Positions 3,497 through 48,028 of a stretch of 64,000 nucleotides of DNA are shown piece after piece; position 1 is the stretch's first letter, and each line of letters opens with the position of its first letter. Below the pieces are notes generated by a model. It was not told where the DNA came from and did no database searches. It saw nothing but the letters and a program-made list of their open reading frames with translations. The position numbers and the translations under genes are program-made. Origin of the DNA: Actinoplanes sp. L3-i22 (GTDB taxonomy: Bacteria > Actinomycetota > Actinomycetes > Mycobacteriales > Micromonosporaceae); NCBI RefSeq assembly GCF_019704555.1, contig NZ_AP024745.1, positions 8,192,501 to 8,256,500 on the forward strand. The letters run 5' to 3'.

Positions 3497-3630
3497 GGGT
3501 TTTCCGCAACCACCCGCGGACGTCGCCCTTTCGCTCCGAGCGTTCTGGGCGCCCCGCGCCCTGCTCGGATCGGAAGGGTCCCCGCGGGAGCGACGATCAG
3601 TTATCGGCCGCAGCGTAGGCAATATTCTTT
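3497..3630 (+). repeat. Dispersed palindromic intergenic element, copy A
   Basis: One of five copies of the same element (others at 7682, 13558, 33910 and 47878). It begins with GGGTTTTCCGCAACCACC, has the hairpin core TTCTGGGCGCCCCGCGCCCT, the invariant block GGTCCCCGCGGGAGCGACGA, then CAGTTATCGGCCGCAGC and an AT-rich tail. A second copy of only its left end lies at 3440-3467. Unlike the other four, this copy sits between two genes of the same direction (cellulase and ArsR). The rest of the 3361-3681 gap holds only the terminator. Confidence 0.85.
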
Positions 3631-3681
3631 ATGGTTATTGAAGTTGCTCCTTATATAAGCCTCCTCTGATAGGATTCCTCC

Positions 3682-4044
3682 GTGCATGCGTTCGATGTGC
3701 TCGGCGATCCGGTCCGGCGCCGCATCCTGGAGCTGCTCGCCGAGGGTGAGCAGAGTTCCGGCGCCGTGACCGCGGTGATTCGCGCCGAGTTCGGCATCTC
3801 CCAGCCGGCGGTGTCGCAGCATCTGCGGGTGCTGCGCGACAACGGCTTCGCCACCGTCCGGCCGGACGGAGCACGGCGGCTCTACGCGGTCGACGACACC
3901 GCGCTGCGCCAGGCCGACGAGTGGCTGAGCCGGTTCCGCAGATTCTGGACGCCACACCTCGCCGCGATGGCCACCGAGGTGGCCCGCGGGAAAAGAATGC
4001 GGCGCCTGGCCGCATCCGACGATCTCAGGAGCACCGATGATTGA
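3682..4044 (+). CDS. ArsR-family transcriptional regulator
   Basis: A 120-residue winged-helix DNA-binding protein. The N-terminus FDVLGDPVRRRILELLAEG is the classic ArsR opening, and the recognition helix lies in ISQPAVSQHLRVLRDNG (about 40-57), followed by the wing. There are no metal-binding Cys pairs, so this belongs to the ArsR group that partners AHSA1/SRPBCC proteins rather than the metal sensors. The next gene is such a partner and overlaps it by 8 bp. A second, unrelated-looking ArsR/AHSA1 pair occurs at 49165-49979. Confidence 0.88.
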   Translation: MHAFDVLGDPVRRRILELLAEGEQSSGAVTAVIRAEFGISQPAVSQHLRVLRDNGFATVRPDGARRLYAVDDTALRQADEWLSRFRRFWTPHLAAMATEVARGKRMRRLAASDDLRSTDD

Positions 4045-4678
4045 CGCGACCGAGCAGGTCAACAGCGTCCGGCGCACCCTCGCCGGCACGACCCTCGAGG
4101 CCGGCGAGGCCCGGGTGCTGACCATCAGCCAGGTCTACGACACCGACCTCGACGACATGTGGGACGTGGTCACCGACCCGGCCCGGATCGAGCGCTGGTT
4201 CCTGCCGATCTCCGGCGAGCTACGCGAGGGCGGAAAATACCAGTTCGAGGGGAACGCCGGCGGCACGGTCACCGGCTGCGACAAGCCGAACTCGTTCACC
4301 GCGACCTGGGAGTTCGGCGGCGGGATCAGCTGGATCGAGGTGCGGCTCACGCCCGAGGGCGACGGGCGCACCCGATTCGCCCTGGCGCACACCGCGCTCG
4401 CCGACGACGGCGACGAGCACTGGAAGCAGTTCGGGCCCGGCGCCGTCGGCGTGGGCTGGGACTCCGGGCTGCTCGGCCTGGCCATGCACCTCTCCGCGCC
4501 GGACGCGCCGCGCGACAACGACGCGATCATGGCGTGGATGGTGTCCGAGGACGGGAAGCGCTTCATGAAGCTGAGCAGCGAGGCGTGGGCCGCGGCGGAC
4601 GTCGCCTCCGGCGCCGATCCCGCCACGGCGGAGAAGCAGGCGGCGGCGACCTATGCGGCTTACACCGGGGCCGCTTGA
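4037..4678 (+). CDS. SRPBCC (AHSA1-like) domain protein
   Basis: A 213-residue protein of the START/Bet v1-like AHSA1 family, small-molecule-binding helix-grip folds. The segment with DMWDVVTDPARIERWFLPISG (about 36-56) is the family's N-terminal signature, and the central beta sheet (FEGNAGGTV...WEFGGGISWIEVRL) is typical. The C-terminal extension (about 160-213) is longer than in minimal members. The start codon lies inside the preceding arsR gene, so expression is coupled. These pairs are common in actinobacteria, but their ligand is generally unknown and I cannot assign one. Confidence 0.85.
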   Translation: MIDATEQVNSVRRTLAGTTLEAGEARVLTISQVYDTDLDDMWDVVTDPARIERWFLPISGELREGGKYQFEGNAGGTVTGCDKPNSFTATWEFGGGISWIEVRLTPEGDGRTRFALAHTALADDGDEHWKQFGPGAVGVGWDSGLLGLAMHLSAPDAPRDNDAIMAWMVSEDGKRFMKLSSEAWAAADVASGADPATAEKQAAATYAAYTGAA

Positions 4679-4915
4679 TTTCTTTCGGTACGGCGGTGGG
4701 CCCGGCCGGGTCGTGAGGTGACCGGGCCGGGCCGCGCCGTTCCGGTCGGCGGTCACGCCGCTGGGTCGGGGTCGGATCGCCGGCTGCACCGCGGGGCCGG
4801 GCCGCCGGTTGCGACGTCGGGTCATGTCGGGTCGCTGGGTTGTGCCGGGTCGCCGCTGCGGTGCCGGGCCGTGTCGTGGTTGCTTTCGTGGGCGGGATGC
4901 CGTATGCCGGGCGGT

Positions 4916-5263
4916 ATGGACGGGGAGAAGCTGCGGCAACACTGTCTCGCGAAGCCCGGGGCCTGGCAGGACGAGCCCTGGGAGGGCGACGTCGTGGTCA
5001 AGGTCGGCCCGAAGATCTTCGCGTTCCTGGGGAGCACGGGCACGACGGTCGGGGTGAAGTGCGGCAAGGGGCGGGACCTGGCCGACGAGTGGGTGACCCG
5101 GTTTCCCGAGGACGCTTCGGCCAGCGCCTACATCGGGCGATACGGCTGGAACACGCTGCGCCTGGGAGGCCGGATCCCGGCGGACGAGATCCTGGAGGCG
5201 GTCGACGCGTCCTATGACGCGGTCGTGGCCGCCCTCCCGAAGAAGGACCGGCCGCGGGAGTAG
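4916..5263 (+). CDS. MmcQ/YjbR-family DNA-binding-like protein
   Basis: A 115-residue protein of the MmcQ/YjbR family (CyaY-like fold, double-wing-like). The sequence has the expected N-terminal helix, the PWEGDVVVKVGPKIFAFLG strand pair, the KCGKGRDLADEW stretch and a WNTLRLGG region followed by a final helix ending in KKDRPRE. Function in the family is poorly defined. The ATG at 4916 gives the usual family length. An in-frame ATG at 4904 would add four residues; neither has a strong ribosome site. The frame is open further upstream, but that translation is Arg/Gly-rich and unlike protein. Confidence 0.75.
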   Translation: MDGEKLRQHCLAKPGAWQDEPWEGDVVVKVGPKIFAFLGSTGTTVGVKCGKGRDLADEWVTRFPEDASASAYIGRYGWNTLRLGGRIPADEILEAVDASYDAVVAALPKKDRPRE

Positions 5264-5310
5264 TCCCCCGGGGGCAGATCATCCACCACAGACGGTCCAG
5301 TGGCGCCACT

Positions 5311-5394
5311 GCCGGCTTGCCTGGCGTCGCCGCCTGCTTGCCTGGCGCCGCCGCCTGCTTGCCTGGCGCCGCCGCCTGCTTGCCTGGCGCCGCT
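5311..5394. repeat. Tandem repeat, 21 bp x 4
   Basis: Four adjacent copies of GCCTGCTTGCCTGGCGCCGCC (units start at 5311, 5332, 5353 and 5374, with one or two changes each). Several frames stay open across it, but the products (ACLPGAAACLPGAA...) look like repeat translations, not genes. Confidence 0.9.
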
Positions 5395-5584
5395 GCCCGC
5401 CGGTCGGTCACGGCTCCGGCCTGCTCGCTGTTTTGCTTGCCAGGCACCGCCCGCTCCTGGTCACGGCTGCGGCCGCCGCTAGCGGGAGTTGCCGCCTGCG
5501 GTGACTTCCGGGGGTACGCCGTGGGCCCGCTCCGCCGACGCCGCAAGCTCCCGGCTGGTGCTCAGGGCTGTCCCGGCGCGCTTG

Positions 5585-5759
5585 AACAGCCCTGAGCACC
5601 AGCCGAGCCGAGTGAGCTGGTGACCACGGCTGCCCAAGGCGCCCAGAACAGCCCTCACGACCAGCCGCGCCGAACGAGCTGGTGACCACGGCTGCCCAAG
5701 GCGTCCGGAACAGCCCTCACGACCAGCCGCGCGGGAGGAGCTGGTGACCACGGCTGCCG
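5585..5759. repeat. Direct repeat, 62 bp x 2.8
   Basis: Three copies start at 5585, 5647 and 5709, exactly 62 bp apart. Each begins AACAGCCCT and contains GAGCTGGTGACCACGGCTGC. With the 21-bp array this fills most of the 623-bp gap between the YjbR-type gene and the tetR gene. I see no credible gene in the gap. Confidence 0.9.
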
Positions 5760-5886
5760 TGAGGATCGCTTGCGGTTCTGGGCGGCTGGAGCCGGGGTGG
5801 TGCCATGGGCGCCGGGCCGCGGCTCGTTCCAGGCGAAACGGATCCACCGCGCGCTGTGGACAACCGCCGCGGGGGCGCTCGAGTCC

Positions 5887-6480
5887 CTAGGCTCGGGTGG
5901 ACGAGAGCACGAAGTCGACCAAGGCCGTGGCGTAGTGATCAGCGCCCGCGGCCACCTGATCGCGCAGGTGGGGAGGGGTAGCCAGCACATGATTCAGGAC
6001 GCCGCCGCAGACGCAGTCCAGCAGCAGGGTCACGCTCGTGTCGGGCCGCAGCTCGCCCCGGTCGATGGCCCGGCGGACGATCGCGCGGGCCGCCAGGACC
6101 TGGGACTCCTGTAACCGCTGCAGGTGGTCGCGGACCTCGGGCACCCGCTGGGCGTCGACCCGGAGCTGGAGCGCGGCGCGGCCGGCCTCGCCGAGGTAGG
6201 AGCGCTGGATCTGCCGGGCCAGGCTGATCAGGTCGTCGCGGACCGCGCCCGTGTCGATGTCCTCGATGCCGTTCAGGCGGGCTGTCAGGGCGGCCGCGAG
6301 CAGGGCTTCCTTGTTCGGCCAGCGGAGGTAGACGGAGGCTTTGCCGACCGCGGCCCGGCGGGCGACCGAGTCGACGGTGAAGCGGTGCCAGCCGTTCTCG
6401 CCGAACACCTCGGCGGCGGCCCGGGTGATCCGTTCGTCGACGTCGGGGTCGCGGGGACGCCCTTGTGGGGTTGCTGACAT
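5887..6480 (-). CDS. TetR-family transcriptional regulator
   Basis: A 197-residue TetR repressor. The helix-turn-helix is in residues 14-60 (DERITRAAAEVFGENGW, then FTVDSVARRAAVGKASVYLRWPNKEAL). The C-terminal ligand-binding half carries the TetR_C-like pattern of Arg-rich helices. It is divergent from the metallo-hydrolase gene, and the 84-bp gap holds three GTCTAGG half-sites that are the obvious target. The likely role is repression of the hydrolase and of itself, relieved by an unknown small molecule. Confidence 0.9.
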   Translation of the reverse strand: MSATPQGRPRDPDVDERITRAAAEVFGENGWHRFTVDSVARRAAVGKASVYLRWPNKEALLAAALTARLNGIEDIDTGAVRDDLISLARQIQRSYLGEAGRAALQLRVDAQRVPEVRDHLQRLQESQVLAARAIVRRAIDRGELRPDTSVTLLLDCVCGGVLNHVLATPPHLRDQVAAGADHYATALVDFVLSSTRA

Positions 6481-6515
6481 CGGGCCGCCTTCCGTTGCCG
6501 CGTGGATGTCGATCA

Positions 6516-6551
6516 GTCTAGGGTCGGTTTCCTAGACAAGAGTCGTCTAGG
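6516..6551. promoter_or_regulatory. Predicted TetR operator, three alternating half-sites
   Basis: GTCTAGG (6516-6522), CCTAGAC (6531-6537) and GTCTAGG (6545-6551) form two overlapping perfect inverted repeats with spacers of 8 and 7 bp. The middle arm is shared. The site ends 13 bp before the ATG of the hydrolase and 35 bp from the tetR start. Confidence 0.8.
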
Positions 6552-6564
6552 AAGTGGGGTTCGG

Positions 6565-7692
6565 ATGGCACCGGTGACCCGTGCGGCCGGCGACGCGATC
6601 GTCGTGACCGGTGTCGCGCAGCGTGAGGCCTGGAAGGCGCGCGTGCTGCCGCCGGTGGAGCACCTCACCGACGAGGCCGGGCGCCTGGCCGGCGGGATCT
6701 GGTCGGTGCCGGCGGAGCAACTCACCGACGGGGGCGGACACCCGGCAGGCGGGGGCGGGCGCCCGGCGGGTGGGATCTGGTCGGTGCCGGTGCCGATTCC
6801 GCGGAGTCCGTTGCGGTACACGCTGTCCTACCTGATTCCCGGGGATGACGGGCTGGTCGTCGTGGATCCGGGGTGGGACAGCGACGAGGGCTGGGCCGCG
6901 CTGCTCGACGGGCTGGCGGCGGCCGGGGCCGGGCCGGGGGATGTCACCGGCGTGGTCGTCACGCACGTGCACTCGGATCATCACGGGCTCTCCAAGCGGC
7001 TCCAGCAGGCCGGCGCCTGGGTGGCCATGCACCCGGCCGAGCGGGACGCGCTGGTCCCGACCGACTCCCCGGCCGACTGGCTGCGGGCGCATCACGTCCC
7101 GGAGGACGAGATCGCCGTGCTGGCCGGGACGATCGGGCAGCACCGGCTCGCCGCGCCCGCCCAGCCCGACCTGCTGCTGGAGGACGGCGACCCGGTGCCG
7201 CTCAAGGGGCGGAAGCTGCGTGTGGTGTGGACGCCGGGGCACACGCCCGGGCACATCTGCCTGGTCGACGCCGAGGCGGGGGTGCTGCTCACCGGGGATC
7301 ATCTGCTGCCGCGGATCAGTCCGAACATCGGGCTTCAGCGGCCGGGTTCGTCGCCGCTGGAGTCGTTCCTGGAGTCGCTGGCGAAGGTGGCCGAGCACGA
7401 CGGGCTGGACGCGCTGCCCGCTCATGAGTACCGGTTCCGTGGCATCGCGGCCCGCGCCCGTCAGCTGCGGGCGCACCACGAGCAGCGCTGCGAGGAGATC
7501 GTGGCGGTCGTCGAGAAGCTGGGCGCGCCGACGATCTGGCAGCTGGCCGAGCAACTGACCTGGTCACGGCCGTGGGCGGAGATCGGGACGATGCGGGTCG
7601 GCGCGGTGGCCGAGACCATGGCGCACGTCCGCTACCTGGCCGACCGGGGCGCGCTGCACTGGTCCGGTGACGCGGTAACCCGGGTTTTGTGA
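6565..7692 (+). CDS. MBL-fold metallo-hydrolase
   Basis: A 375-residue metallo-beta-lactamase-fold hydrolase. The metal motif THVHSDHHG is at about 133-141, with further ligands in TPGHTPGHICL and TGDHLLP. The C-terminal 70 residues form a winged-helix-like region often seen in the CPSF/LACTB2-like group. The ATG at 6565 follows AAGTGGGG and sits just after the operator; an earlier in-frame GTG at 6502 would run through the operator. Residues about 33-75 contain an imperfect internal duplication (LTD...GGIWSVP twice). The last codons and stop lie inside repeat element copy B. The substrate is unknown; the TetR pairing suggests an inducible detoxifying or thioester-type hydrolase. Confidence 0.85.
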   Translation: MAPVTRAAGDAIVVTGVAQREAWKARVLPPVEHLTDEAGRLAGGIWSVPAEQLTDGGGHPAGGGGRPAGGIWSVPVPIPRSPLRYTLSYLIPGDDGLVVVDPGWDSDEGWAALLDGLAAAGAGPGDVTGVVVTHVHSDHHGLSKRLQQAGAWVAMHPAERDALVPTDSPADWLRAHHVPEDEIAVLAGTIGQHRLAAPAQPDLLLEDGDPVPLKGRKLRVVWTPGHTPGHICLVDAEAGVLLTGDHLLPRISPNIGLQRPGSSPLESFLESLAKVAEHDGLDALPAHEYRFRGIAARARQLRAHHEQRCEEIVAVVEKLGAPTIWQLAEQLTWSRPWAEIGTMRVGAVAETMAHVRYLADRGALHWSGDAVTRVL

Positions 7693-7830
7693 AGTAACCG
7701 TGCCCACCCTCGGACGTCGCCCTGGAGGGTCTCGCGTTCTGGGCGCCCCGCGCCCTGCGAGGCCCGTAAGGGTCCCCGCGGGAGCGACGATCTGTACCCC
7801 GGCGGACCGAGGAAATGAAGATTTTGATCA
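7682..7830 (+). repeat. Dispersed palindromic intergenic element, copy B
   Basis: Same element as copy A, in the same orientation as the hydrolase gene before it. The left end GGGTTTTGTGAAGTAACC supplies the hydrolase stop codon (TGA 7690-7692). It keeps TTCTGGGCGCCCCGCGCCCT and GGTCCCCGCGGGAGCGACGA but is diverged in the segment corresponding to AGTTATCGGCC. It lies between convergent genes. Confidence 0.85.
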
Positions 7831-7844
7831 TTCGCTCGAAACCG

Positions 7845-7879
7845 CGACCGCCGCCGGCGAATGGCACCGGCGGCGGTCG
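7845..7879 (-). terminator. Hairpin terminator of the siderophore-binding lipoprotein gene
   Basis: CGACCGCCGCCGG (7845-7857) and CCGGCGGCGGTCG (7867-7879) form a perfect 13-bp stem with a 9-nt loop, starting 12 bp beyond the stop codon. There is no clear T tract, as is usual in actinobacteria. Confidence 0.75.
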
Positions 7880-7891
7880 GGATGGCGCGGA

Positions 7892-8932
7892 TCAGGCGAG
7901 CTTCTTGGACTTCTTGATCGCGGCGGTGAGCGACTCGAGCAGCGGCGCGGCGCCGTTCCAGGAGTAGATCGGGACGGCCTGCCACGGGAAGACCTGGTTG
8001 GCCTTGACCGCGGGCAGCGCGTTCCAGGCCGGCTTCGCGGTCAGGTCCTTCGGCTGCAGGGTCCCGGTGCGGGCGTCCAGGAAGATGATGTCGGCCTGGT
8101 ACTTGTCGGCGTTCTCCCAGCTCAGGGACTCGTAGTAGTCCTGGCCCTTGACCTCGGGGAGGATCAGGTCGACGCCGAGCTCCTTGAAGTACATCAGGTC
8201 GGAGCTGACCGCCGCGCTGGAGACGTAGAAGATGTCCGCGGCGCCGGAGCCGAACAGGACCTTGATGCCGCCGGAGGCCTTCGCGGCGTCGGTCAGGTCC
8301 TGGGCGGCCTTCTCGAAGCGGGCCTTGGCCTCGGCGACCTTCGGCGCGGTCAGGTCGGCGCCCAGCGACTTGGCCAGCTCGGCGTAGCGCTCGATCGGCT
8401 TGTTCAGCGGGACGCGACCGACAGTGATCAGGGCGTTGTTCGGGGCGACGGCGAGGATCTTGTCCTTCGACTCGTCCGGGACGTACCACCACGAGCCCGG
8501 GTCGAACTGGTGGGTGACCAGCAGGTCCGGGGTGAGCGCGGCGTACTTCTCGACGGAGAACTCGCCCCACGCGTTGCCGATGATCTGGACCTTGTTGACG
8601 TCAAGCGAGCCGGCCTGTGCCTCGGCGGTGCCGTCGGCCTTCTTGGTCTCACCGAAGACGCCGACGATCTGGTCCTGGAGGCCCAGGTCGGCCAGGGCGG
8701 CGGCGGTGCCGGTGAAGGCGACGATCTTCGACGGGGCCTTGTCGGCCTTCAGCTCCTTGGGCTGGTCGTCGGTGAAGCTCCACGGGCCGGCGGCAGCGGC
8801 GGACGCGGCCGGCGCGGACGTGTCGTCGTCCTTACCGCCACACGCGCTCAGCACCGCGCCGGCAGCGACGGCGCCACCGGCCGCGAGCAGGCCACGACGG
8901 GACAGGGGCAGGGCGGAAAAAGACATGCTCAC
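7892..8932 (-). CDS. Iron-siderophore ABC transporter substrate-binding lipoprotein
   Basis: A 346-residue periplasmic-binding protein of the FecB/FepB type. The N-terminus has twin Arg (SRRGLLAAGG) and a lipobox ending LSACGG, with the acylated Cys at about 31, so it is a Tat- or Sec-exported lipoprotein. The mature part has the two-lobe pattern of this class, including VAFTGTAAALADLGL, GEFSVEKYAALTPDLLVT and PNNALITVGRVPLNKPIERYAELA. It is divergent from two FecCD permeases and an ATPase, with an iron box between them, so iron-loaded DtxR/IdeR should repress all four genes. The actual siderophore is not evident. Confidence 0.92.
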   Translation of the reverse strand: MSMSFSALPLSRRGLLAAGGAVAAGAVLSACGGKDDDTSAPAASAAAAGPWSFTDDQPKELKADKAPSKIVAFTGTAAALADLGLQDQIVGVFGETKKADGTAEAQAGSLDVNKVQIIGNAWGEFSVEKYAALTPDLLVTHQFDPGSWWYVPDESKDKILAVAPNNALITVGRVPLNKPIERYAELAKSLGADLTAPKVAEAKARFEKAAQDLTDAAKASGGIKVLFGSGAADIFYVSSAAVSSDLMYFKELGVDLILPEVKGQDYYESLSWENADKYQADIIFLDARTGTLQPKDLTAKPAWNALPAVKANQVFPWQAVPIYSWNGAAPLLESLTAAIKKSKKLA

Positions 8933-8971
8933 ATCTTTCGCAGGACAACAACCCGGTCGTTCGAACGGGTG

Positions 8972-11045: not shown

Positions 11046-11073
11046 TGATCAACTTTAGGTGTGGGGTGCGGAG

Positions 11074-11939: not shown

Positions 11940-13538
11940 ATGTCCATCGAACCCGTGCCGAACGGCAACGTGCTGGCCCGCTGGTTCAGCGACCTCCGGG
12001 TGCGCACCAAGATCCTCGCGTCGGTGCTGCTCATCGCGGTGGTCGTCACCGGCGCCTGCGTGCTCGCGGTGGTGCGGATGGGCGACATGGACGAACGCAT
12101 GGCCGGCGTCCGCAACCAGAACATGACGAACATCGACCTGCTCGGCAGGATCCGGGGCGCGCAGGCCGAGATCGCCCACTTCGCCGCGATGTCCGGCTCG
12201 TCGTCGACGGCGGCCGAGCGGGCGACCGCGGGGCAGGGCACGGCCAAGGCGGTCCAGGCGCTCGACGAGACGCTCAAGCAGTACGACGCGCAGCCGAAGA
12301 GCGCCGAGGCGGCCACCGTCACCGAGAAGCTGCTCGACTTCGTCGCCACGTTCGAGCAGGCGCTGACCGACGCCCAGTCCGGCAAACCGGTCCAGCCGTC
12401 GGTCTTCAACACCTCGGTCGGCGGCATGTCGGAGACCGTCGGCGAACTGTCCCGGGTCGAGAACACCGGCGCGCTCGCGGCGCTCGACCAGGCGCACGCC
12501 AACTACGTCTCGGCCCGCCGGGACGTGATGATCACGCTCGGCCTGGCGCTGCTCGCCGGCATCGGGTTCGCGCTGCTCATCTCCGGTTCGATCACCCGCC
12601 GCCTGCACCCGGTGGCCGAGGCGATGGAGGCGATGGCGGCCGGCAACCTGAACCTGAGCGTCCCCGCGTCCGGCCGCGACGAGATCGGCGCGATGGCCCG
12701 CGCGGTCAACAAGGCCACCACCTCGGTGCGGGACACGGTCACCGCACTCGCCGAGGGCGCCCAGCTGCTCGCCCACAGCTCCCAGGAGCTGGCCCGGGTC
12801 AACGACCAGACGGTGGCCGGCTCCCGGGCGGTCACCGACCAGGCCGAGGCGGCGAACGGCTCGGCCGCCGAGGTCTCGTTCAACCTGCAGACCGTCGCCA
12901 CCGGCGCGGACGAGATGGCCCAGGCGATCCAGGAGATCTCGCAGAGCGCCACCGCCAGCGCCGGCGTCACCATGGAAGCGGTCGAGGTCGTCGCGCAGAC
13001 CACCCAGACGGTCAGCAAGCTCGGCGCCAGCTCCCAGGAGATCGGCGCCGTGGTCAAGGTGATCACCTCGATCGCCGAGCAGACGAACCTGCTCGCCCTG
13101 AACGCGACGATCGAGGCGGCCCGGGCCGGCGAGTCCGGCAAGGGCTTCGCGGTCGTCGCCGGCGAGGTCAAGGAGCTCGCGCAGGAGACCGCGAAGGCGA
13201 CCGAGGACATCTCGCAGCGGGTGCAGGCGATCCAGTCCGACACCGAGAGCGCGGTCGCCGCGATCGTCCGGATCGGCGAGGTGATCGAGAAGATCAACCA
13301 GTTCCAGACCACGATCGCGTCGGCCGTCGAGGAGCAGACCGCGACGACCGCCGAGATGAACCGCAACGTGGCCACCGCGGCGGCCGGGGCGTCGGAGATC
13401 GCCCGCAACATCAACGGCGTCTCCAGCGCGGCCGAGCAGAGCACGATGACGGTGGCGGCGGGCCAGCGGGCCGCCGCCGAGCTGGCCACCCTCGCCTCCG
13501 ACATGAACCAGCTGGTCAGCCGCTTCACCTACCGCTGA
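11940..13538 (+). CDS. Methyl-accepting chemotaxis protein
   Basis: A 532-residue chemoreceptor. It has a short cytoplasmic leader, TM1 (about 24-45), a roughly 150-residue extracellular four-helix-bundle-like sensor, TM2 (about 195-215), a HAMP domain (about 216-270, [21 protein letters not shown]), and a long coiled coil ending in the signalling hairpin. The hairpin tip reads [24 protein letters not shown]...[14 protein letters not shown], the near-invariant MCP motif. GGAG precedes ATG 11940 by 5 nt; an in-frame ATG at 11928 lacks this. No chemotaxis genes adjoin it. Its ligand is unknown, although its place behind the iron genes may be fortuitous because a terminator separates them. Confidence 0.93.
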
Positions 13539-13557
13539 GTGAATTCCCCGACGAACC

Positions 13558-13710
13558 TTCAAGATCAAATTCTTTATTGCCTCGGCTGCGGCCGATAACT
13601 GATCGTCGCTCCCGCGGGGACCCTTCCGGGCCTCGCAGGGCGCGGGGCGCCCAGAACGCGAGACCCTCCAGGGCGACGTCCGCCGTTGGTCACGGTTTCA
13701 AAGACCCGGT
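13558..13710 (-). repeat. Dispersed palindromic intergenic element, copy C
   Basis: Same element as copies A and B but inverted, matching the direction of the Ldh-type gene whose 3' end it covers. On the minus strand it runs from GGGTCTTTGAAACCGTGACC, which encodes the gene's last residues and TGA, through the hairpin core and GGTCCCCGCGGGAGCGACGA to GGCAATAAAGAATTTGATCT. It lies between the convergent chemoreceptor and Ldh-type genes. Confidence 0.88.
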
Positions 13711-14751
13711 CGGCTGGGGGACGCCGAGCTTCTCCGCGGCCACCTGGAGTTCTGACCAGACTTTCGCGGCCACCGGGATGCCCTTGGCAGCGCGGGACTC
13801 GGCGACCGCCGCACTGTTCTCGCCCGGGTAACGGATCTCCGTGTCCTCGTCGGCCCGGGCAAGACTCTTCAGCGTGTCCAGCGTGGCGCCGACGGCTGGA
13901 CCGAAGTCCGAGGACGAGCCGAAGGCGGCCGGGTCCAGGGCGAGGATCAGCGCGTTCTGACGGTGCACCCGGCCCTGCGGGTCGTCCGAGTGGAACGAGC
14001 TGAGGATCGGCGCGCCGACCAGGACGCTGGTGAGCAGCTCGAAGACCAGCGACATGCCGGCGCCCTTGACGCCGCCGAGCGGGAGCGGGAGCTTCGCCAA
14101 GTTCGGGTCGGTGGTCGGCACGCCGTCGGCGGTGGCCGCGGTGCCCGGCGGAAGCTCCTTCCCGGCGTTGCGGAACTGGGCGATCTTGCCGAGGGCGATG
14201 CCGGCGGTGGCCATGTCGAGCAGGGCCGGGGCGTGGCCGGGCGCCGGGACGGCGATCGACAGCGGGCTGGTGGCCACCGCCGCGCCCTTGACCCCGGGGT
14301 AGGCCATGTTCGGCATCCCGGCGACGAACGCGATCCCGATCAGCCCCCGCGCGGCGATCGTCGAGGTGTAGTAGCCGATCGCTCCGGTGTGGACGGTCTG
14401 CCGGACCCCGACGATGCCGGCCCCGCTGGTGCGGGCGCGGGCGACCGCCTCGTCCGCCGCCGCGCTCAGCGCGACCGGCCCCGGCGCACGGTCGGCGTCC
14501 AGCACGGCGACCGCCGCGGTGGTCGACGTGAAGCTCAACGAGGGAGCGCGGTTGGCCTCCCCCGAGTCGAGCAGTTCCAGGTAGCGCGGCACCCGGGAGG
14601 CGCCGTGCGAGTCGACCCCGCGCAGGCTGGCCCAGGTGAGGACGTCGGCGGTCACCGCGGCGTGCTCCGCGCCGAGGCCGGCCGCGATGAACAGGGCGGT
14701 GGTGAAGGAGCGCAGGTCGTCGGCGGGGACGAGCAACTTGGGTGCGGGCAT
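13690..14751 (-). CDS. Ldh-family (malate/L-lactate/ureidoglycolate) oxidoreductase
   Basis: A 353-residue NAD(P)-dependent dehydrogenase of the Ldh_2 family, unrelated to classical lactate dehydrogenase. The family pattern is clear: DSHGASRVPRYLELL (substrate and catalytic His region, about 50-64), VRQTVHTGAIGYYTSTIA, MPNMAYPGVKGAAVATSPLSIAVP and GGVKGAGMSLVFELLTSVLVG. It should interconvert a 2-hydroxy acid and a 2-oxo acid. It is the last gene of the operon amidohydrolase - ThDP enzyme - Ldh, 11 bp after the ThDP gene. The C-terminal GSLKP and stop lie in the repeat element. Confidence 0.88.
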   Translation of the reverse strand: MPAPKLLVPADDLRSFTTALFIAAGLGAEHAAVTADVLTWASLRGVDSHGASRVPRYLELLDSGEANRAPSLSFTSTTAAVAVLDADRAPGPVALSAAADEAVARARTSGAGIVGVRQTVHTGAIGYYTSTIAARGLIGIAFVAGMPNMAYPGVKGAAVATSPLSIAVPAPGHAPALLDMATAGIALGKIAQFRNAGKELPPGTAATADGVPTTDPNLAKLPLPLGGVKGAGMSLVFELLTSVLVGAPILSSFHSDDPQGRVHRQNALILALDPAAFGSSSDFGPAVGATLDTLKSLARADEDTEIRYPGENSAAVAESRAAKGIPVAAKVWSELQVAAEKLGVPQPTGSLKP

Positions 14752-33909: not shown

Positions 33910-34072
33910 CTTCAAGATCAAATTCAAGGGCTTTTTGTCCTACGCTGCGGCCAATAACTGATCGTCGCTCCCGCGGGGACCCTTCCGGGCCTCGCAGGGC
34001 GCGGGGCGCCCAAAAACGCGAGGCCCTACAGGGCGATGTCCGAGGGTGGTTGCGGTCAACCCGCAAAAACCG
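33910..34072 (-). repeat. Dispersed palindromic intergenic element, copy D
   Basis: Inverted copy lying between the convergent GntR and histidine-kinase genes, in the kinase's direction. It keeps GGTCCCCGCGGGAGCGACGA and GGGCGCCCCGCGCCCT, has a short A-run change (TTTTTGGGCG for TTCTGGGCG), and ends GAATTTGATCTTGAAG exactly like copy C. Its left end supplies the last codons and the stop of the kinase gene. Confidence 0.88.
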
Positions 34073-35498
34073 GTAGCCGGATCGCCACCACGGTTCCGCC
34101 CTCGTCCGCGGGGGCGGCCGTGACCGTCCCCCCGTGCTGCGTCGCGGTCTGCGCGACGATCGCCAGGCCCAGCCCAGAGCCGGGCATCGAGCGCGCCGCG
34201 GTGGCCCGGTAGAAGCGGTCGAACACGTGCGGCAGGTCCTCGGAGTCGATCCCCGGACCACTGTCGGTCACCGTGAGCGTGGCCAGGTCCGGCTCCGCGG
34301 CGGCGACCAGCCGGACCCGGACCACGGCACCCGGCGGGCTCCACTTCGCCGCGTTGTCCAGCACGTTCACCACCATCCGCTCCAGCTCGCCGGACCGGCC
34401 CGACACGGTGACCGGCTCCAGCTCCGCGTCGTACGTCAGCCCCGGCGCCCGGATCCGCACCCGGGCCACCGCCGCACCCACCACCTCGGCGAAGTCGACC
34501 GGCTCGATCGCCTCCCGGGTCGCCTCCTCACGGGACAGCTCGACCAGCTCGGTGGTGAGCGTCGCCAGCTCGCGCACCTGCGCGTCCAGGTCGGCGAGCA
34601 GCTTGGCACGCTCCTCGGGCGGCAGCCGGTGCGCCAATTCGGGCCGGCGCTCCAGCTCCAGCAGCAGCTCCACATTGGTCCGGATGCTGGTCAACGGCGT
34701 CCGCAACTCGTGCCCGGCGTCCTCCACCAGGGTCCGCTGGGCGCGGCGGGACGCGTCGATCGCGGCGAGCATCGCGTTCACCGACCGGCCCAGCCGGGCG
34801 ATCTCGTCGACCCCCTGCACCTCGATCGGATGGTCCAGGTCCTGGGTGACGGCGACCGCCTCGACCGACGACGTGAGCCGGTCGACCGGGGCCAGCCCGG
34901 CCTTGGCGACCGTACGCCCGAGGAACGCCGCACCCGCGATCCCGGCCGCGCAGCCGAGCGCGAGCAGCGCCGCGAACGCCCCGAGCACCCGGGAGCTGGC
35001 GTCCTGGTCCACGCCGACCTGCACCGCGCCGCCCCCGGTCAGCGGGAGGGTGAGCATCACGTACGAGTCCGGCCCGAGCGTGATCTTCTCCTGCACCGCC
35101 TGCTGGAGGTTCCCGGCGGCGATCTGCTTGGCGGTGTCGGTGACCGGCAGCGTGGTCCGGCTGCCACCGGACGCGGCGCCGCTCGCGTCGAGGATCTGCC
35201 AGCACGGCCCGATCTCCCGCCCGTGGTTGCCCGGCCCGCCCTTGCCCCACCCCGGGTGGTCGCCGCCGCCCCGGGTCCGGGAGGACTCGGTGGCCAGCCA
35301 CTGGGCCGGGTTCGCCGCGATCGACGCGGCGTCGCTGCTCAGCTCGGTGGTGACCTGGTGCCGCTGGATCTCCCGGACGGCGATCCAGGCGCCGGCCGCG
35401 ACGAGCAGGACGGCCGCCCCGACCGCGCCGGTGACCAGCAGCGACAGGCGGGCGTGCAGGGTGCGGGCCCGCCACCAGCGCCCGGGAAGCAGGTTCAC
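34056..35498 (-). CDS. Two-component sensor histidine kinase
   Basis: A 480-residue membrane kinase. TM1 is at about 17-40 and TM2 at about 170-195, bounding an extracellular domain with an Arg/Gly/His-rich stretch (about 88-110). HAMP follows (about 196-250), then the dimerisation domain with the phospho-acceptor His in [15 protein letters not shown], and an ATPase domain with N box VLDNAAKW, G1 DSGPGID and G2 GLGLAIV. It overlaps the response regulator by 4 bp. With the flavoprotein genes upstream it forms a four-gene operon, suggesting that it senses redox or metal conditions outside the membrane. Confidence 0.92.
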
Positions 35499-41280: not shown

Positions 41281-41296
41281 CCCCGGCCGCCCCGGG

Positions 41297-42550: not shown

Positions 42551-42640
42551 GGCCAGGCGCCGGCGAACCACGCTGTGCCGGTCAGGCGCCGCACTGGCCA
42601 GACGCCGGGCGAACCACGCCGTGCCGGTCAGGCGCCCAGA
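42551..42640. repeat. 45-bp duplication across the 3' end of the metallo-hydrolase gene
   Basis: The block GGCCAG.CGCCGG.CGAACCACGC.GTGCCGGTCAGGCGCC occurs at 42551 and again at 42596, 45 bp apart. The second copy contains the stop codon (minus strand, TGA 42630-42628) of the next gene. The rest of the 42447-42627 gap shows no gene. Confidence 0.75.
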
Positions 42641-43236: not shown

Positions 43237-43300
43237 ACCCGCGATTCTGCCCTCCCCGCTCCCCGCCGCCCGAGTCAGGGCCGGGCCGCCACCCACGCGC

Positions 43301-43568
43301 GCCACCACCCACCGCACGCCACCACCCACCGCACGCCACCACCCACCGCACGCCACCACCCACCGCACGCCACCACCCACCGCACGCCGCCACCCACCGC
43401 ACGCCGCCACCCACCGCACGCCACCACCCACCGCACGCCACCACCCACCGCACGCCACCACCCACCGCACGCCACCACCCACCGCGCGGCCACCACCCAC
43501 CGCGCGCCACCACCCACCGCGCGGCCACCACCCACCGCACGCCACCACCCACCGCACGCCACCACCGG
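43301..43568. repeat. Minisatellite, 17 bp x about 15.5
   Basis: GCCACCACCCACCGCAC repeats from 43301 with starts every 17 bp (two units of 18 bp near the right end). Some units carry GCCGCC or GCGCGG variants. It fills the gap between two divergent genes and therefore their promoter region. The unit length is not a multiple of three, so the open frames across it are artefacts. Confidence 0.95.
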
Positions 43569-43669
43569 CGCTTCGCGGCGTGGTGACGCCGCGGGCCCGG
43601 GCCCGGCCGACAGAGGGTGGACGGCCGCAGCACAGATCCGGCACAAGAACCGCGGCTTACATCGTGGTC

Positions 43670-44617
43670 GTGAGCACTGACAACGCACCGAAACGCAAGC
43701 TTTCGCGGCGCGGCTTCCTGGCCGGTGGGCTGGGTGCGCTGGCCGCCGCCGGCGGGGCCGGCGCCTGGGCGCTGGACCGCTACGTCATCGACCACGTCGA
43801 GGTGTCCAGCGCCTCGGCCCTGACCGCGGCGAACGTCGTCGCCGCCGAGGCCGCGAGCGACGGGACCGCCACCGCGACCTCCTACACCAGCGACACCGCG
43901 ACGGTCTCGATCGAGACCGTCGCGACCGGCTCGGGCAGCGACAAGATCACCTACTTCGTCGCGGACGTCACGGTCGGCAACGCGACGATCGTGCGGTCCG
44001 CGTTCGCGAACGACCAGTTCGGCGAGAACATCATCGCGAATCCGTCGACGATCGCGAAGAGCCTCGACGCGGTGCTGGCGATCAACGGCGACTACTACGG
44101 GTTCCGGGACACCGGGATCGTGATCCGCAACGGGGTGAAGTTCCGGGACTCCGGGGCGCGGCAGGGGCTCGCGTTCTACGCCGACGGGACCGCGAAACTG
44201 TACGACGAGACCGCGACGACCGCGGACGCGCTGATCGCCGCGGGCGTCTGGAACACGTTGTCGTTCGGGCCGGGACTCGTCGAGAACGGCAAGGTGCTCA
44301 CCGGCATCGACCAGGTCGAGGTGGACACCAACTTCGGCAACCATTCCATTCAAGGGCAACAACCGCGTACCGGCGTCGGCCTGATCGCCGCGAACCACCT
44401 GCTCTGGATCGTCGCGGACGGGCGCAGCAGCGGATACAGCCGGGGCGTCACGATGACCGAGTTCGCCCAGATCTTCGCGGACCGGGGCGCGCAGCTCGCG
44501 TACAACATCGACGGCGGCGGCTCGTCCGCGATGGTGTTCCGGGGGAATCTGGTCAACAACCCGCTCGGCAAGGGCCAGGAGCGCGGGACCAGCGACATCC
44601 TCTACGTGGCGGGCTGA
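43670..44617 (+). CDS. Phosphodiester glycosidase (NAGPA/DUF2233) family exported protein
   Basis: A 315-residue protein with a Tat signal (LSRRGFLAGGLGALAAAGG, about 11-29) and an NAGPA-like domain. Conserved features are VLAINGDYYGFRDTGIVIRNG, LSFGPGLVENG, QPRTGVGLIA and YNIDGGGSSAMVFRG; the DGGGSS motif is diagnostic. The family removes covered sugar-1-phosphodiester caps or acts on exopolysaccharide. GTG 43670 is chosen as the start nearest the Tat motif; GTG 43664 is possible. It is 3 bp upstream of the glycosyltransferase gene and probably works with it on a surface glycan. Confidence 0.9.
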   Translation: MSTDNAPKRKLSRRGFLAGGLGALAAAGGAGAWALDRYVIDHVEVSSASALTAANVVAAEAASDGTATATSYTSDTATVSIETVATGSGSDKITYFVADVTVGNATIVRSAFANDQFGENIIANPSTIAKSLDAVLAINGDYYGFRDTGIVIRNGVKFRDSGARQGLAFYADGTAKLYDETATTADALIAAGVWNTLSFGPGLVENGKVLTGIDQVEVDTNFGNHSIQGQQPRTGVGLIAANHLLWIVADGRSSGYSRGVTMTEFAQIFADRGAQLAYNIDGGGSSAMVFRGNLVNNPLGKGQERGTSDILYVAG

Positions 44618-44620
44618 GCG

Positions 44621-45805
44621 ATGCTGGTGCTGATCCCCGCCTACCAGCCCGATCACCGGCTCGCCGGGCTGGTCCGCGCCCTCGATCATCATCACGTGCT
44701 GGTCGTGGACGACGGGAGCGGCTCGGCGTACGCCGAATTCTTTGAAGAAGCCCGGATCGCCGGCGCCGAAGTCATCCACCTGGACCACAACCGGGGTAAG
44801 GGTTTCGCCCTGCGCACCGGATTCGCGCACGCCTCGGCGCGCTACCCGGGGCACGACGTGGTCTGCGCGGACAGCGACGGGCAGCACCGGCCGGCCGACA
44901 TCGAGGCGGTCGCCGCCCGGGTCGGTGTCACCGACGCGGCGATGGTGCTCGGGGTCCGCGCGTTCACCGGGCCGGTGCCGGCCCGCAGCCGGTTCGGCAA
45001 CACCGCCACCCGCGTGCTGTTCCGGCTGGTCACCGGGCTGACGGTGACCGACACGCAGACCGGGCTGCGCGGCTATCCGGCGTGGATGCTCGACTTCCTG
45101 ACCGGCGTGCCCGGGGATCGGTTCGAGTACGAGCTGCGGCTGCTGCTGCGCGCGGCCCGGCAGCGGCTGCGGGTCGAGGAGGTCCGGATCGCGACCGTCT
45201 ACCTGGACGGGAACCGGTCGTCGCACTTCCGGCCGCTGCGCGACTCGGCGCGGATCTACGGCCCGCTGCTCGCGTTCGCGGCGTCGTCGCTGCTGGCGTT
45301 CGCGGTGGACGCCGGCCTGCTGGCGATCCTGGTGACCGTTACCGGTCAGCTGGCGCTGTCCGCGGTGCTGGCCCGGACGGTCAGCGCGACGCTGAACTAC
45401 TCGGTGAACCGGGCGGTGGTCTTCGACCGGGTGCCGCACCGGCGGGCGGCGCCGCGCTACGCCGGGCTCGCGCTGCTCTCGCTGAGCGCGAACGTGCTGC
45501 TCCTGAGTCGGCTCAGCGACGTGCTGGGGTCGCTCGTCGCCGCCAAGCTGGTCACCGAGGTGACCCTGTTCGCGGCCGGCTTCGCGATCCAGCGGGCGTT
45601 CGTCTTCGGGCGCCGGAGAGCAGGCGATGCGGCGTTCGTCTTCGGCCACCGCGGAACGGGCGATGCGGCCGGCGCTTGGCCGCCGGCCGCATCAGTTCCC
45701 GAAGGGTTCGACCGTACCCGCTCCAGTGGTTCCCCGAAGCGGCCGCCTTACACCGGGGTCACTCCGGGAGAGCGGCGTCGGCCGTCGCCGAGTGCTTCGG
45801 GATGA
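44621..45805 (+). CDS. Family-2 glycosyltransferase fused to a GtrA-like membrane domain
   Basis: A 394-residue protein. The GT2 domain (about 1-215) has VLIPAYQPD, VVDDGSG and CADSDGQHRP (DxD-like), as in polyprenyl-phosphate mannosyl/glucosyltransferases. Four helices (about 220-330) form a GtrA-like flippase domain ending in AFVFGRR. A further 60-residue Pro/Arg/Gly-rich tail starts with a tandem 12-residue duplication and overlaps the 3' end of the opposite MFS gene by 47 bp. Homologues usually end near residue 335, so the tail probably arose through loss of a stop or repeat expansion. Confidence 0.9.
   Translation: MLVLIPAYQPDHRLAGLVRALDHHHVLVVDDGSGSAYAEFFEEARIAGAEVIHLDHNRGKGFALRTGFAHASARYPGHDVVCADSDGQHRPADIEAVAARVGVTDAAMVLGVRAFTGPVPARSRFGNTATRVLFRLVTGLTVTDTQTGLRGYPAWMLDFLTGVPGDRFEYELRLLLRAARQRLRVEEVRIATVYLDGNRSSHFRPLRDSARIYGPLLAFAASSLLAFAVDAGLLAILVTVTGQLALSAVLARTVSATLNYSVNRAVVFDRVPHRRAAPRYAGLALLSLSANVLLLSRLSDVLGSLVAAKLVTEVTLFAAGFAIQRAFVFGRRRAGDAAFVFGHRGTGDAAGAWPPAASVPEGFDRTRSSGSPKRPPYTGVTPGERRRPSPSASG
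45596..45667 (+). repeat. In-frame 36-bp tandem duplication in the GT2-GtrA gene
   Basis: Units at 45596 and 45632 both start GCGTTCGTCTTCGG and end GGCGATGCG, encoding AFVFGRRRAGDA and AFVFGHRGTGDA. The first copy is the normal end of the last GtrA helix; the second is additional. Confidence 0.85.
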
Positions 45806-47207
45806 CCAGGGCCAGCAGCGCGGCCAGGATCGCGGCGCCCGCGCAGAGCCCGAAGAGCAACTGGTACGCGCCGAGCGTGGGCAGCTCGTGGCCGCCCAGG
45901 TCCAGCGTCTTCGCGGCCAGGACCGCGCCGCCGATGGCGCTGGCGAGCGAGCTGCCGACGCTGCGGAACAGCGCGTTCAGGCCGTTCGCGGCGGCCAGCT
46001 CGGACAACGGGGTGGCGTGCGAGATCAGGCCCGGCATGGCGGCGTACGCGATGCCCGTGCCGGCGCCGGCGATCGTCGCGCCGAGGATGACCTCCCACAG
46101 GCTGTCGGTCAGGAAGATCCGGGAGGCGAACCCGACCGCGATGATCAGCGAGCCGATGATCAGGGCGGTGCGCGGGGCCAGCTTCGCGGAGACCGGGGAG
46201 AGTAGCAGCATGATGATGCCGCCGGGCAGCATGCACAGGCCGCCGACCAGGATCGACTTGCCGAAGCCGTACCCGGTGACGGTCGGCATCTGCACGTAGG
46301 TCGCGGTGCCGATCAGCGTCGCGAACAGCGCGAAGCCGACGAACAGCGACGCGATGTTGGTCAGCAGCAGCGCCGGGCGGGCCGTCGTGCGCACGTCCAC
46401 CAGCGGGGACTTGAGCTTCAGCTCGACCACCACGAAGACCACCAGCAGCACCGCCGCGGCGACCAGCAGGCCGATGGTCAGCGGGTCGCTCCAGCCCCAC
46501 TTCGAGCCCTGGGCCAGCGGGAGCAGCAGCGACAGCATGGCCGCGCCGAGCAGGACCGTGCCGATGTAGTCCATCTTGCCCTTGCCGGCCGTCGCCGGGT
46601 TCGGCACCAGCTTGACGATGCCCGGGATGACCAGGATGCCGCCGACCACGCAGATCCAGAACAGGACGTGGTAGTCCGCGTACTCCGCGATCAGGCCGGA
46701 GAGCGGCAGGCCGAGCGCGCCGCCGACCCCGAGCATCGCGCTGATCAGGGCGATGCCGGCGCCGGAGTGCTCGCGGGGCAGGGTCACGCCGACCAGGCTG
46801 ATGCTCAGCGGGACGGTGGCGACCGAGAGGCCGACGATCGCCCGGCCGACGATCATCGGGGTGAGCGAGTCGGACAGCGCGCAGACCAGCGAGCCGATGA
46901 TCAGGGCGCCGAGCGAGACCAGCACCATCCGCTTGGTGCCGTACAGGTCGCCGAGCCGGCCGAACGCGGGCACCGCGACCGCGCCGACCAGCAGGGTCGA
47001 GGTGAGCAGCCAGGCGATGCCGTCGCTGCTGGCGTTGAGGTCCACGCCCAGCTCGGACATCACCGGGACGAGCAGGGACTGGGTGAGCGACACCATCAGC
47101 GCGGCGGTGCCGATCACCAGCAGGACGATGATCTGCTTACCGGTCCAGGAGGATTTCGGCTTCGCGCCGGACTCCTGCGACTGCGCCACAGCGGCGGCTT
47201 GGGACAT
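45759..47207 (-). CDS. MFS drug-efflux transporter (DHA2/14-TMS type)
   Basis: A 482-residue exporter with about 14 helices. Motif A appears as GRLGDLYGTKRMVLVSL (about 78-94), and the N-terminal half has the DHA2 features LGVDLNASSDGIAWLLTSTLLVGA and FSGVGGALGLPLSGLIAEYADY-like regions. The ATG at 47207 follows AAGGAGCCCTC (reading on the minus strand), a good ribosome site. It is divergent from a TetR regulator whose operator lies in the 91-bp gap. Substrates are probably toxic organic molecules. Its 3' end overlaps the GT2-GtrA gene. Confidence 0.92.
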   Translation of the reverse strand: MSQAAAVAQSQESGAKPKSSWTGKQIIVLLVIGTAALMVSLTQSLLVPVMSELGVDLNASSDGIAWLLTSTLLVGAVAVPAFGRLGDLYGTKRMVLVSLGALIIGSLVCALSDSLTPMIVGRAIVGLSVATVPLSISLVGVTLPREHSGAGIALISAMLGVGGALGLPLSGLIAEYADYHVLFWICVVGGILVIPGIVKLVPNPATAGKGKMDYIGTVLLGAAMLSLLLPLAQGSKWGWSDPLTIGLLVAAAVLLVVFVVVELKLKSPLVDVRTTARPALLLTNIASLFVGFALFATLIGTATYVQMPTVTGYGFGKSILVGGLCMLPGGIIMLLLSPVSAKLAPRTALIIGSLIIAVGFASRIFLTDSLWEVILGATIAGAGTGIAYAAMPGLISHATPLSELAAANGLNALFRSVGSSLASAIGGAVLAAKTLDLGGHELPTLGAYQLLFGLCAGAAILAALLALVIPKHSATADAALPE

Positions 47208-47224
47208 GAGGGCTCCTTCAACTT

Positions 47225-47260
47225 CGTGGCAGACTGTGCCACGAGGCAGAGCGTGCCACG
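47225..47260. promoter_or_regulatory. Predicted TetR operator of the MFS exporter
   Basis: CGTGGCA (47225-47231) and TGCCACG (47237-47243) are perfect inverted arms around 5 bp, and a third TGCCACG is at 47254-47260. A further GTTGCC/GGCAAC pair is at 47266-47281. All lie between the divergent starts of the exporter and the TetR gene. Confidence 0.75.
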
Positions 47261-47298
47261 AGATGGTTGCCGGCAGGCAACGCGGGAGAATGTGTGAG

Positions 47299-47928
47299 AT
47301 GGGGATCACCAGCCTTCGGGACCGGAAGCGTGAACAGAGCCGGATCGCCACCGTGCGGGCGGCCTGGCAGCTGTTCATCGAGCGCGGCTACGACAACGTC
47401 ACGGTGGGCGACATCTGCGCCAAGGCGGAGATCGCGCCGCGCACGTTCCACCGGTATTTCGCCAGCAAGGAGGACGTGGTCGCGGAGCCGGTCCGGCAGA
47501 TGACCACGATCGTCACCGAGTACCTGTCCGCCGGCGCGCCGGACGGGGCGGACGATCGCGCGGTGATGCGCGGGGCGATGATCCGGGTGGCCGAGTTCGT
47601 GGTGGAGCGGCGGGAGCTGCTGGTCGCCCTGCGCACGGTGGCCCAGCAGTCGGCGCACCTCCAGGTGTCCGCGGTGGTGGTCCGGACCGACAGCGACCCG
47701 AACATCGCGGCGCTGCTCGCGGCGCGGACCCCCGGCGCCGACCCGGGTGACTGGCGGCGCCGGCTGCTGGTCGGGTGCGTCACCCAGGCGTTCCGGATCT
47801 GGTACGAGGACTTCCTGCCCGGCGACCTCCCCGACCCGATGTCCCACCTCACCGAGATCATGGACGCCGCGGTCACCGGGTTTTCGGGTCCTTTGAAACC
47901 GCAACCACCCACGGACGTCGCCCTGTAG
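47299..47928 (+). CDS. TetR-family regulator of the MFS exporter
   Basis: A 209-residue TetR regulator. The helix-turn-helix is at about 8-58 (QSRIATVRAAWQLFIERGYDNVTVGDICAKAEIAPRTFHRYFASKEDVV). The effector half has a typical helical pattern. ATG 47299 is favoured because GGGAG lies 10 nt before it; an ATG at 47290 is too close. The last 14 residues (SGPLKPQPPTDVAL) and the stop are encoded by repeat element copy E, so the native C-terminus was probably replaced by the insertion. Confidence 0.9.
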   Translation: MGITSLRDRKREQSRIATVRAAWQLFIERGYDNVTVGDICAKAEIAPRTFHRYFASKEDVVAEPVRQMTTIVTEYLSAGAPDGADDRAVMRGAMIRVAEFVVERRELLVALRTVAQQSAHLQVSAVVVRTDSDPNIAALLAARTPGADPGDWRRRLLVGCVTQAFRIWYEDFLPGDLPDPMSHLTEIMDAAVTGFSGPLKPQPPTDVAL

Positions 47929-48028
47929 GGCCTCGCGTTCTGGGCGCCCCGCGCCCTGCGAGGACCGGAAGGGTCCCCGCGGGAGCGACGATCAGTTATC
48001 GGCCGCAGCCGAGGCAATAAAGAATTTG
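47878..48028 (+). repeat. Dispersed palindromic intergenic element, copy E
   Basis: The copy with the clearest structure. After GGGTCCTTTGAAACCGCAACC come nested arms CCTCGC (47931-47936) and GCGAGG (47958-47963) enclosing GGGCGC/GCGCCC, then GGACC/GGTCC (47962-47976), then CGAT/ATCG around CAGTT, and the tail GGCAATAAAGAATTTG. It overlaps the end of tetR and reaches to within 5 bp of the end of the convergent MetE-like gene. Confidence 0.9.

Follow-up and report, generated by a model that had tools for sequence, protein, structure and literature searches.

Five copies of a folded intergenic repeat lie in a 64,000-nucleotide stretch of Actinoplanes sp. L3-i22 (contig NZ_AP024745.1, positions 8,192,501 to 8,256,500; hereafter the window), and they raise the question of how one element came to recur at the ends of ordinary genes. 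The original prediction had offered two answers: a family resembling repetitive extragenic palindromes (REPs) or miniature inverted-repeat transposable elements (MITEs) that was co-opted as a 3' untranslated region (3'-UTR) or bidirectional terminator, or a mobile element that targets gene 3' ends. The explanation favored here, at a probability of roughly 0.6, is a non-autonomous mobile REP/MITE-like family that inserts with fixed polarity, is mobilized in trans and has become, secondarily, a docking site for an IS110-family element.

Sequence was inspected at all five predicted positions, and an element was present at each (coordinates are those of the window):

3497 to 3641, plus strand: copy 1, with a head (GGGTTTT and a CCG..CGG-type hairpin), the long stem P2, the core at 3577-3596 and a tail.
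7682 to 7836, plus strand: copy 2, with the GATCTGTACCCC type of tail and the core at 7771-7790.
13557 to 13707, minus strand: copy 3, with the core at 13603-13622.
33916 to 34071, minus strand: copy 4, with the core at 33962-33981 and the TTTTTGGGCG variant.
47878 to 48032, plus strand: copy 5, with the core at 47972-47991.

The copies share a 20-base core, GGTCCCCGCGGGAGCGACGA, which was exact in five of five, as had been claimed. Allowing up to three mismatches, the window held five matches against a mean of 0.11 in shuffled sequences. A second string, GATCAGTTATYGGCCGCAG, was present in four copies and replaced by GATCTGTACCCCGGCGGAC in the copy at 7682. Four of the five copies lie between convergent genes, also as described; the exception is copy 1, which lies between tandem genes. 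The further claim that each copy sits just 3' of a gene and in that gene's direction held for copies 2 to 5, in which the co-directional stop codon falls inside the head or stem: copy 2 at the 3' end of gene 6565-7692 (stop inside the head), copy 3 with gene 13690-14751 on the minus strand (stop in the head) and an opposing plus-strand gene ending at 13538, copy 4 with gene 34056-35498 on the minus strand (ending within the head), and copy 5 with a gene that stops at 47928 within P2, its tail adjoining an opposing stop at 48033. It did not hold for copy 1, which begins 142 nt past the stop of its gene, after a terminator-like hairpin (by eye), nor for the genome as a whole, where the nearest neighbor is the opposing gene at the tail. 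An additional partial head was seen near copy 1, at about 3440-3469.

The genome (G000; other genomes and loci are cited below by G and L numbers) is a single contig of 12.0 Mb. It contained 186 cores at one mismatch or fewer (95 forward, 91 reverse), and the reversed-pattern control gave none. One hundred of these 186 places, all with exact cores, were listed. Across 200 genomes, G000 among them, the core pattern appeared in 23; 20 of these belong to the genus and three, with one match apiece, to other families. Contigs named as A. cyaneus and A. liguriensis also contained the core string; three other exact matches (Phycicoccus and two metagenome-assembled genomes) stood without the remainder of the element and look like chance. 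A covariance-model search of the genome and its relatives, which had been proposed as a check, recovered copies at E <= 0.001 in 57 of the 67 genus genomes, with G000 counted, and copy counts from it are lower bounds, at most 47 candidates having been scored per genome. Among 200 family genomes, 42 matched the model at E <= 1e-4; 11 of these 42 were outside the genus and matched weakly (best E 2.0e-8). By these searches, the repeat family appears essentially confined to Actinoplanes.

The statement that no named family matches agreed with Rfam and with the open literature searched. Rfam 15 gave no window match at the gathering score, and one copy run at a lax setting reached a best E of 1.9; the literature searched contained no paper on the repeat family and none with the core string. 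Plasmid and phage records gave no match with one copy as query, and viral contigs contained no exact core.

The 100 listed copies showed no clear plus/minus bias along the contig. Seventy-two of them fall within the first 4 Mb and 22 between 4 and 8 Mb, a mid-genome scarcity that is provisional, the list leaving 86 places aside. A further subfamily (L038, L054, L057 and L240) has the same core and a similar tail with another middle hairpin (CCTGGCAGGGTG in three of them). Repeats in head-to-head pairs were seen at L016, L018 and L027, with one copy carrying tandem duplicates of its head, and one head-to-head pair encloses an apparent tRNA-Leu gene (by eye).

Each element is about 140-160 nt long. 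From head to tail the order is a GGGTTTT-like start, a short CCG..CGG-type hairpin, stem P2, a small core hairpin and the tail. P2 can reach 16 pairs; it has a GTTCT bulge, and its apex is conserved. The tail is AT-rich (e.g., CAGTTATTGGCCGCAGCCGAGGCAATGAAGAATTTGATCTTGATC) and frequently ends in degenerate TTGATC units.

Two alignments were scored for covariation. Alignment A1 held 64 copies selected by the core or near variants, so that the invariance of the core in it is by construction; relatives with other cores exist and are in alignment A2, which held 38 more diverged matches that were selected by and fitted to the model and are thus biased towards structure. The covariation score was 0.231 in A1 (shuffled mean 0.098) and 0.449 in A2 (shuffled mean 0.123), and neither was reached in 500 shuffles. 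In A1, 146 cells had changed on both sides against 53.1 in shuffles, and 89.6% of cells were paired against at most 48.7% when slid. In A2, 197 cells had changed on both sides against 57.6, and 24 of 32 pairs showed two-sided change (0 of 500 shuffles). The A2 signal exceeded that of A1 on all measures except the percentage paired. Read on the head-to-tail strand, P2 contained 73 G·U and one A·C combination in A1, and 53 and one in A2, as counts of cells that are not independent, the copies being related. A G·U-rich P2 would read as A·C mismatches on the other strand; therefore the head-to-tail strand is the constrained one. This pattern indicates that the head-to-tail strand is the one that folds, as RNA or single-stranded DNA.

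Placement was measured for 102 copies in G000, namely the 100 with listed exact cores and two more from the window, against gene positions from a codon-usage gene caller trained on 62,085 own-genome codons. None of the 102 copies was inside a called gene. Neighboring genes were convergent for 57 copies, both on the opposite strand for 27, both on the same strand for nine and divergent for nine. In a baseline of 1.12 Mb from four relatives, 19.3% of intergenic bases belong to convergent gaps, as against these 57 of 102 copies (p = 2.6e-16). The tail was within 25 nt of the opposing gene's stop in 47 of 102 copies, where insertion spread evenly over intergenic DNA, with both orientations allowed, would give 5.7% (p = 6e-31). 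A co-directional stop was within 25 nt of the head in 16 of 102 (p = 2e-4). Because the simulation was restricted to intergenic DNA, gene avoidance does not explain the tail placement, and since a symmetric process would treat head and tail alike, the placement is polar. Among the 84 copies with an opposing gene, the tail ends at the stop codon or, often, past a terminator-like hairpin (by eye).

A bias to gene 3' ends, as foreseen, was found: 93 of 102 copies adjoin one or more gene 3' ends, where 73% would be expected. The orientation foreseen for it was not. The elements had been said always to lie in their gene's direction, and 36 of 102 copies have an upstream gene that is not co-directional; the tight contact is instead that of the tail with the opposing stop. 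The polarity was also counted in three other sets. In A. cyaneus and A. liguriensis the tail was close in 21 of 36 copies and the head in one of 33 (44 classified, eight dropped). In other core-bearing loci of other species, a set that shares a few loci with the others (L036, L056, L164 and L165), the figures were nine of 20 and four of 20 (28 classified, two dropped). In diverged subfamilies they were 20 of 24 and eight of 23 (35 classified, three dropped). Between tandem genes, the two orientations stood at 27 to nine in G000 (p = 0.004) and at 10 to 7, 7 to 7 and 8 to 7 in the three other sets; a general tandem-orientation bias is not claimed, the G000 skew not being repeated.

Comparison of orthologous gene ends showed sites with and without the element. 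Copy 1 was absent from the aligned relatives G010, G051, G046 and G066; copy 2 from G010, G051, G022, G066 and G014; and copy 4 from G010, G035, G051 and G022. The gene end in G014 is unbroken at the position where G000 holds copy 2, and G066 carries other repeats at the sites of copies 1 and 2. For copy 3 the alignment was limited to the opposing flank in G046 and G066, and both lack the element there. At copy 5 the gene of the relatives ends in TGA at the element start in four of four, and at copy 4 in two of four (G010 and G051); in both cases the gene of G000 reads into the element. G035 and G051 likewise lack a copy that G010 has, and the empty site is clean, with no recognizable target duplication. 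The empty sites indicate, by sequence comparison, that copies have been gained.

At the opposing gene end of copy 5, three relatives have a different subfamily: G010 (where an IS110 element splits the copy), G035 and G051. Another gene end holds copies of two subfamilies in G035, G051 and G022 and is empty in G010. At several shared gene ends the copies resemble the species type and not the locus type (e.g., L018 against L044, L049 and L058, compared without a tree), a pattern in keeping with repeated insertion at favored gene ends and equally with conversion between copies. At L116 in G066, orthologous to window position 7690, where G000 has the repeat, about 33 bp of the gene's own 3' end recur several times in tandem, most units with a stop codon.

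In one relative, G010, the repeat is exploited as a landing pad by an IS110-family element. Repeat copies in this genome contain an insertion of 1.4 kb with an IS110-family gene, which in the two copies scanned has PF01548 (DEDD_Tnp_IS110) and PF02371 (Transposase_20). Twenty-seven of the 72 insertion sequence (IS) candidates in G010 were scored, and all 27 proteins were 99-100% identical; the IS copy at L145 is an additional one, with DNA about 92-93% identical to that of L144. Twenty-two distinct IS places were read, two via synteny and twenty fetched of the 27. The element was at the same core position in 22 of 22, between GGCCCGCGC on the left and GGGAGC on the right, and the flanking repeat halves varied from place to place (the left half is rearranged at L144 and the stem shortened at L350). 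Of 54 G010 cores found by pattern, 32 had an occupied junction and 22 were intact; 21 of the 32 were read, and the others were assigned from the junction letters. Thirteen G010 copies with other core types (L352-L364) were intact, having been selected as intact model matches, so they do not exclude occupancy of such cores. IS110 relatives examined in G022, G035, G012 and G020 were not in the repeat; docking was thus found in one of the five genomes whose IS110 copies were examined.

The left end of the G010 element folds into two loops (z -1.66; 13 of 200 shuffles fold equally well) and contains segments that match its target and its own ends. The left target guide (LTG) is a 9-nt copy of the left target and the right target guide (RTG) a 7-nt reverse complement of the right target. 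The left and right donor guides (LDG and RDG), of 8 nt each, are a copy of the right end and the reverse complement of the left end. The segments had been noticed by eye before the shuffle test, in which their summed length was equalled in none of 2000 shuffles and the single lengths in 55 (LTG), 204 (RTG), 85 (LDG) and seven (RDG). The left end thus carries predicted bridge-RNA guides, the target guides matching the core. In the IS621 study (Durrant et al., 2024, PMC11208160), the bridge RNA has target-guide and donor-guide loops in a non-coding end. The G010 element resembles IS621 in its PF01548 and PF02371 recombinase, its long left end and two predicted loops matching target and donor; it differs in that its bridge RNA is a predicted one and in that its target is a new repeat.

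There is a precedent in Pseudomonas, where ISPa11, ISPpu9 and ISPpu10 were inserted in REPs at a fixed base in 6/6, 7/7 and 7/7 copies (Tobes and Pareja, 2006, PMC1525189). As in that case, the Actinoplanes target is an extragenic folded repeat, often between convergent genes, with a fixed insertion base. Unlike the Pseudomonas REP targets as given there, it is about 140 nt long, has a covarying fold and is in an actinobacterial host.

Taken together, the 186 cores, the covariation and the excess at 3' ends support the claim that a structured REP/MITE-like family is dispersed at gene 3' ends. Under the favored reading the copies would be non-autonomous, and a trans-acting enzyme would recognize the folded head-to-tail strand. 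Insertion would be polar, setting the tail at or next to an opposing stop codon or after its terminator-like hairpin, and the variable head end may take the place of a co-directional gene's stop. Amplification within each lineage would then have given rise to the species-typical subfamilies, and the IS110 element would dock secondarily at the core. The polar placement and the empty sites are more in keeping with targeting of 3' ends than with co-option by itself.

Several observations weigh against this reading. In A1, 14 of 32 pairs showed two-sided change, a number equalled in 69 of 500 shuffles. The strand asymmetry of P2 is reversed in P1 (A·C 26 and G·U 2 in A1; 14 and 11 in A2) and in P3 of A2 (A·C 28, G·U 3), so the strand argument is limited to P2. 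The folds of the five window copies beat shuffles modestly (z -1.25 to -2.87), and predicted folds of single copies differ between copies. Some orthologous sites retain an element across species, as would be expected if it had a function. The empty sites compared revealed neither a terminal inverted repeat nor a target-site duplication that could be recognized; diverged flanks there could hide a duplication of a few bases. As to the mobilizer, the own genome has no Y1_Tnp match, and the largest 15 clusters of an all-against-all comparison of 467 neighboring proteins contained no recurrent recombinase.

A selected cis-acting function is an unlikely alternative, though one that some of the same observations suit. 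Here the folded RNA would end or stabilize transcripts, as a 3'-UTR, bidirectional terminator or insulator, and copies would be kept between genes for that purpose. The 57 copies between convergent genes, the 93 at a gene 3' end, the constraint of P2 on one strand and the several orthologous positions that retain an element agree with it, and in copies that reach the opposing stop there is no space between tail and stop for another hairpin. On the other hand, the upstream gene is not co-directional in 36 copies, many copies at 40-95 nt from the opposing stop sit after an existing terminator-like hairpin (by eye), and window copies 1, 2 and 4 are missing in relatives. In the copies read by eye there was also no U-run directly after the long stem on either strand. 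A role of the repeat in transcription termination is possible.

A second account, which seems quite improbable, is that of a bacterial retroposon resembling short interspersed elements (SINEs). A reverse transcriptase (RT) would copy the folded RNA and insert it tail first, antisense at the 3' ends of other genes; the TTGATC units would be its simple-repeat tail, and a bridge-RNA transposon would later have been programmed to the core. The RNA-like strand asymmetry of P2, the fairly constant tail with its degenerate TTGATC units, the variable head end and the lack of a clear target duplication are as this account would have them. A retron-type RT (59-82 bits, by a reading of score and span) was found in 27 genus genomes, all repeat-bearing, and in none of 10 repeat-free genomes. 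However, this split hinges on the score cut, as a similar span is matched at 39.9 bits in the repeat-free G028 and at 42.7 bits in the own genome, and the co-occurrence counts take no account of kinship. The repeat-rich G010 and G022 have no RT match, and G066 and G014 have none of retron type. None of 35 copies read was 5'-truncated, 20 RT loci gave no match to the repeat model, and 13 loci had no repeat motif upstream of the RT. PADLOC calls the three RTs examined RT_other and RT_outgroup, with NCBIfam matches below cut-off. A retron or other RT was rejected as the mobilizer, the co-occurrence being one-sided and without a sequence link to the repeat, and the retroposon is retained as the boldest of the readings.

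The retron-type RT gene has a conserved upstream region of its own (GGCAGCGTGTCC ... GGGGCACGCTGCC) in many Actinoplanes genomes (L389-L401). Dispersed bacterial repeats under suspicion of retrotransposition are reportedly known from Nannocystis exedens, whose msDNA-like (multicopy single-stranded DNA-like) repeats are, to go by its title, the subject of work by Lampson and Rice from 1997. The Actinoplanes repeat is like these in being dispersed in a bacterial genome. The sequence preceding the retron RT, where a retron msr-msd would be sought, did not resemble it in the loci examined.

Very unlikely is a REP of the type moved by a REP-associated tyrosine transposase (RAYT, an HUH Y1 transposase) that has lost this enzyme. 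The repeat is extragenic, bears hairpins, lies often between convergent genes and sometimes forms head-to-head pairs. PF01797, however, gave no match in G000, which ruled out a RAYT/HUH mobilizer for the own genome, and was absent from 46 of 67 genus genomes, the repeat-rich G051, G035 and G022 among them; the flanks of the PF01797 loci in the 21 positive genomes were not scanned for the repeat. Nor do the listed copies show a strand bias along the contig. A study of GTAG- and CGTC-tagged superfamilies (PMC3733652) gives REPs as 20-40 bp, far below the roughly 140 nt of this repeat, and proposes termination and mRNA stability as functions of those dispersed hairpin repeats, which the Actinoplanes repeat resembles in being dispersed and hairpin-bearing. 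The complement of the window core has CGTC by the small hairpin, and this tag is not kept across subfamilies, being absent from the other one (GATCGCATGC). In habitat and as an IS110 target the repeat works like REPs; on the features tested it is not a member of the RAYT-REP class.

That the repeat is a deletion derivative (MITE) of the IS110-family element inside it deserves almost no credence: the two halves do flank the gene in G010, but near-identical IS proteins lie between repeat halves that differ from place to place, the uninterrupted core equals the two halves joined, related IS110 elements in four other genomes are outside the repeat, and such a derivation is largely refuted by 22 cores of the same subfamily that stand uninterrupted in G010. 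An IS110 mobilizer, suspected from two G010 copies, was likewise rejected because near-identical IS copies lie in differing repeat copies. Bacterial MITEs in general are short, non-coding and multi-copy. The Actinoplanes repeat is all of these and has lineage-specific insertions; inverted repeats at its ends, a duplicated target and a matching transposase were not recognized. Integron attC sites are marked by R and L boxes, cassette arrays and an integron integrase; copies of the Actinoplanes repeat are scattered among ordinary genes.

A longer composite element was rejected, as the 20-25 bp hairpin family found upstream of the repeat also occurs without it. This family of near-perfect hairpins (CCGGCTGG...CCAGCCGG) was seen at window position 5551, upstream in L060-L107 and near 9150 in L162. 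It is often upstream of the repeat and sometimes alone, and G051 has several similar units in tandem at one site. Another repeat of the own genome, with TGTGGATAAC/TGTGGACAAC motifs that seem to resemble DnaA boxes, lies upstream of the folded repeat at L004, L013, L019, L025, L260, L264, L272 and L295.

If the favored reading is true, Actinoplanes has a large family of folded mobile repeats that is polar for gene 3' ends and that no enzyme found here explains, and the search for that enzyme is now concrete. The IS110 finding adds a natural, predictedly RNA-guided element on a multi-copy extragenic site in a high-GC actinobacterium. Its docking offers a direct test case for the choice of targets by bridge RNAs and possibly a tool for integration.

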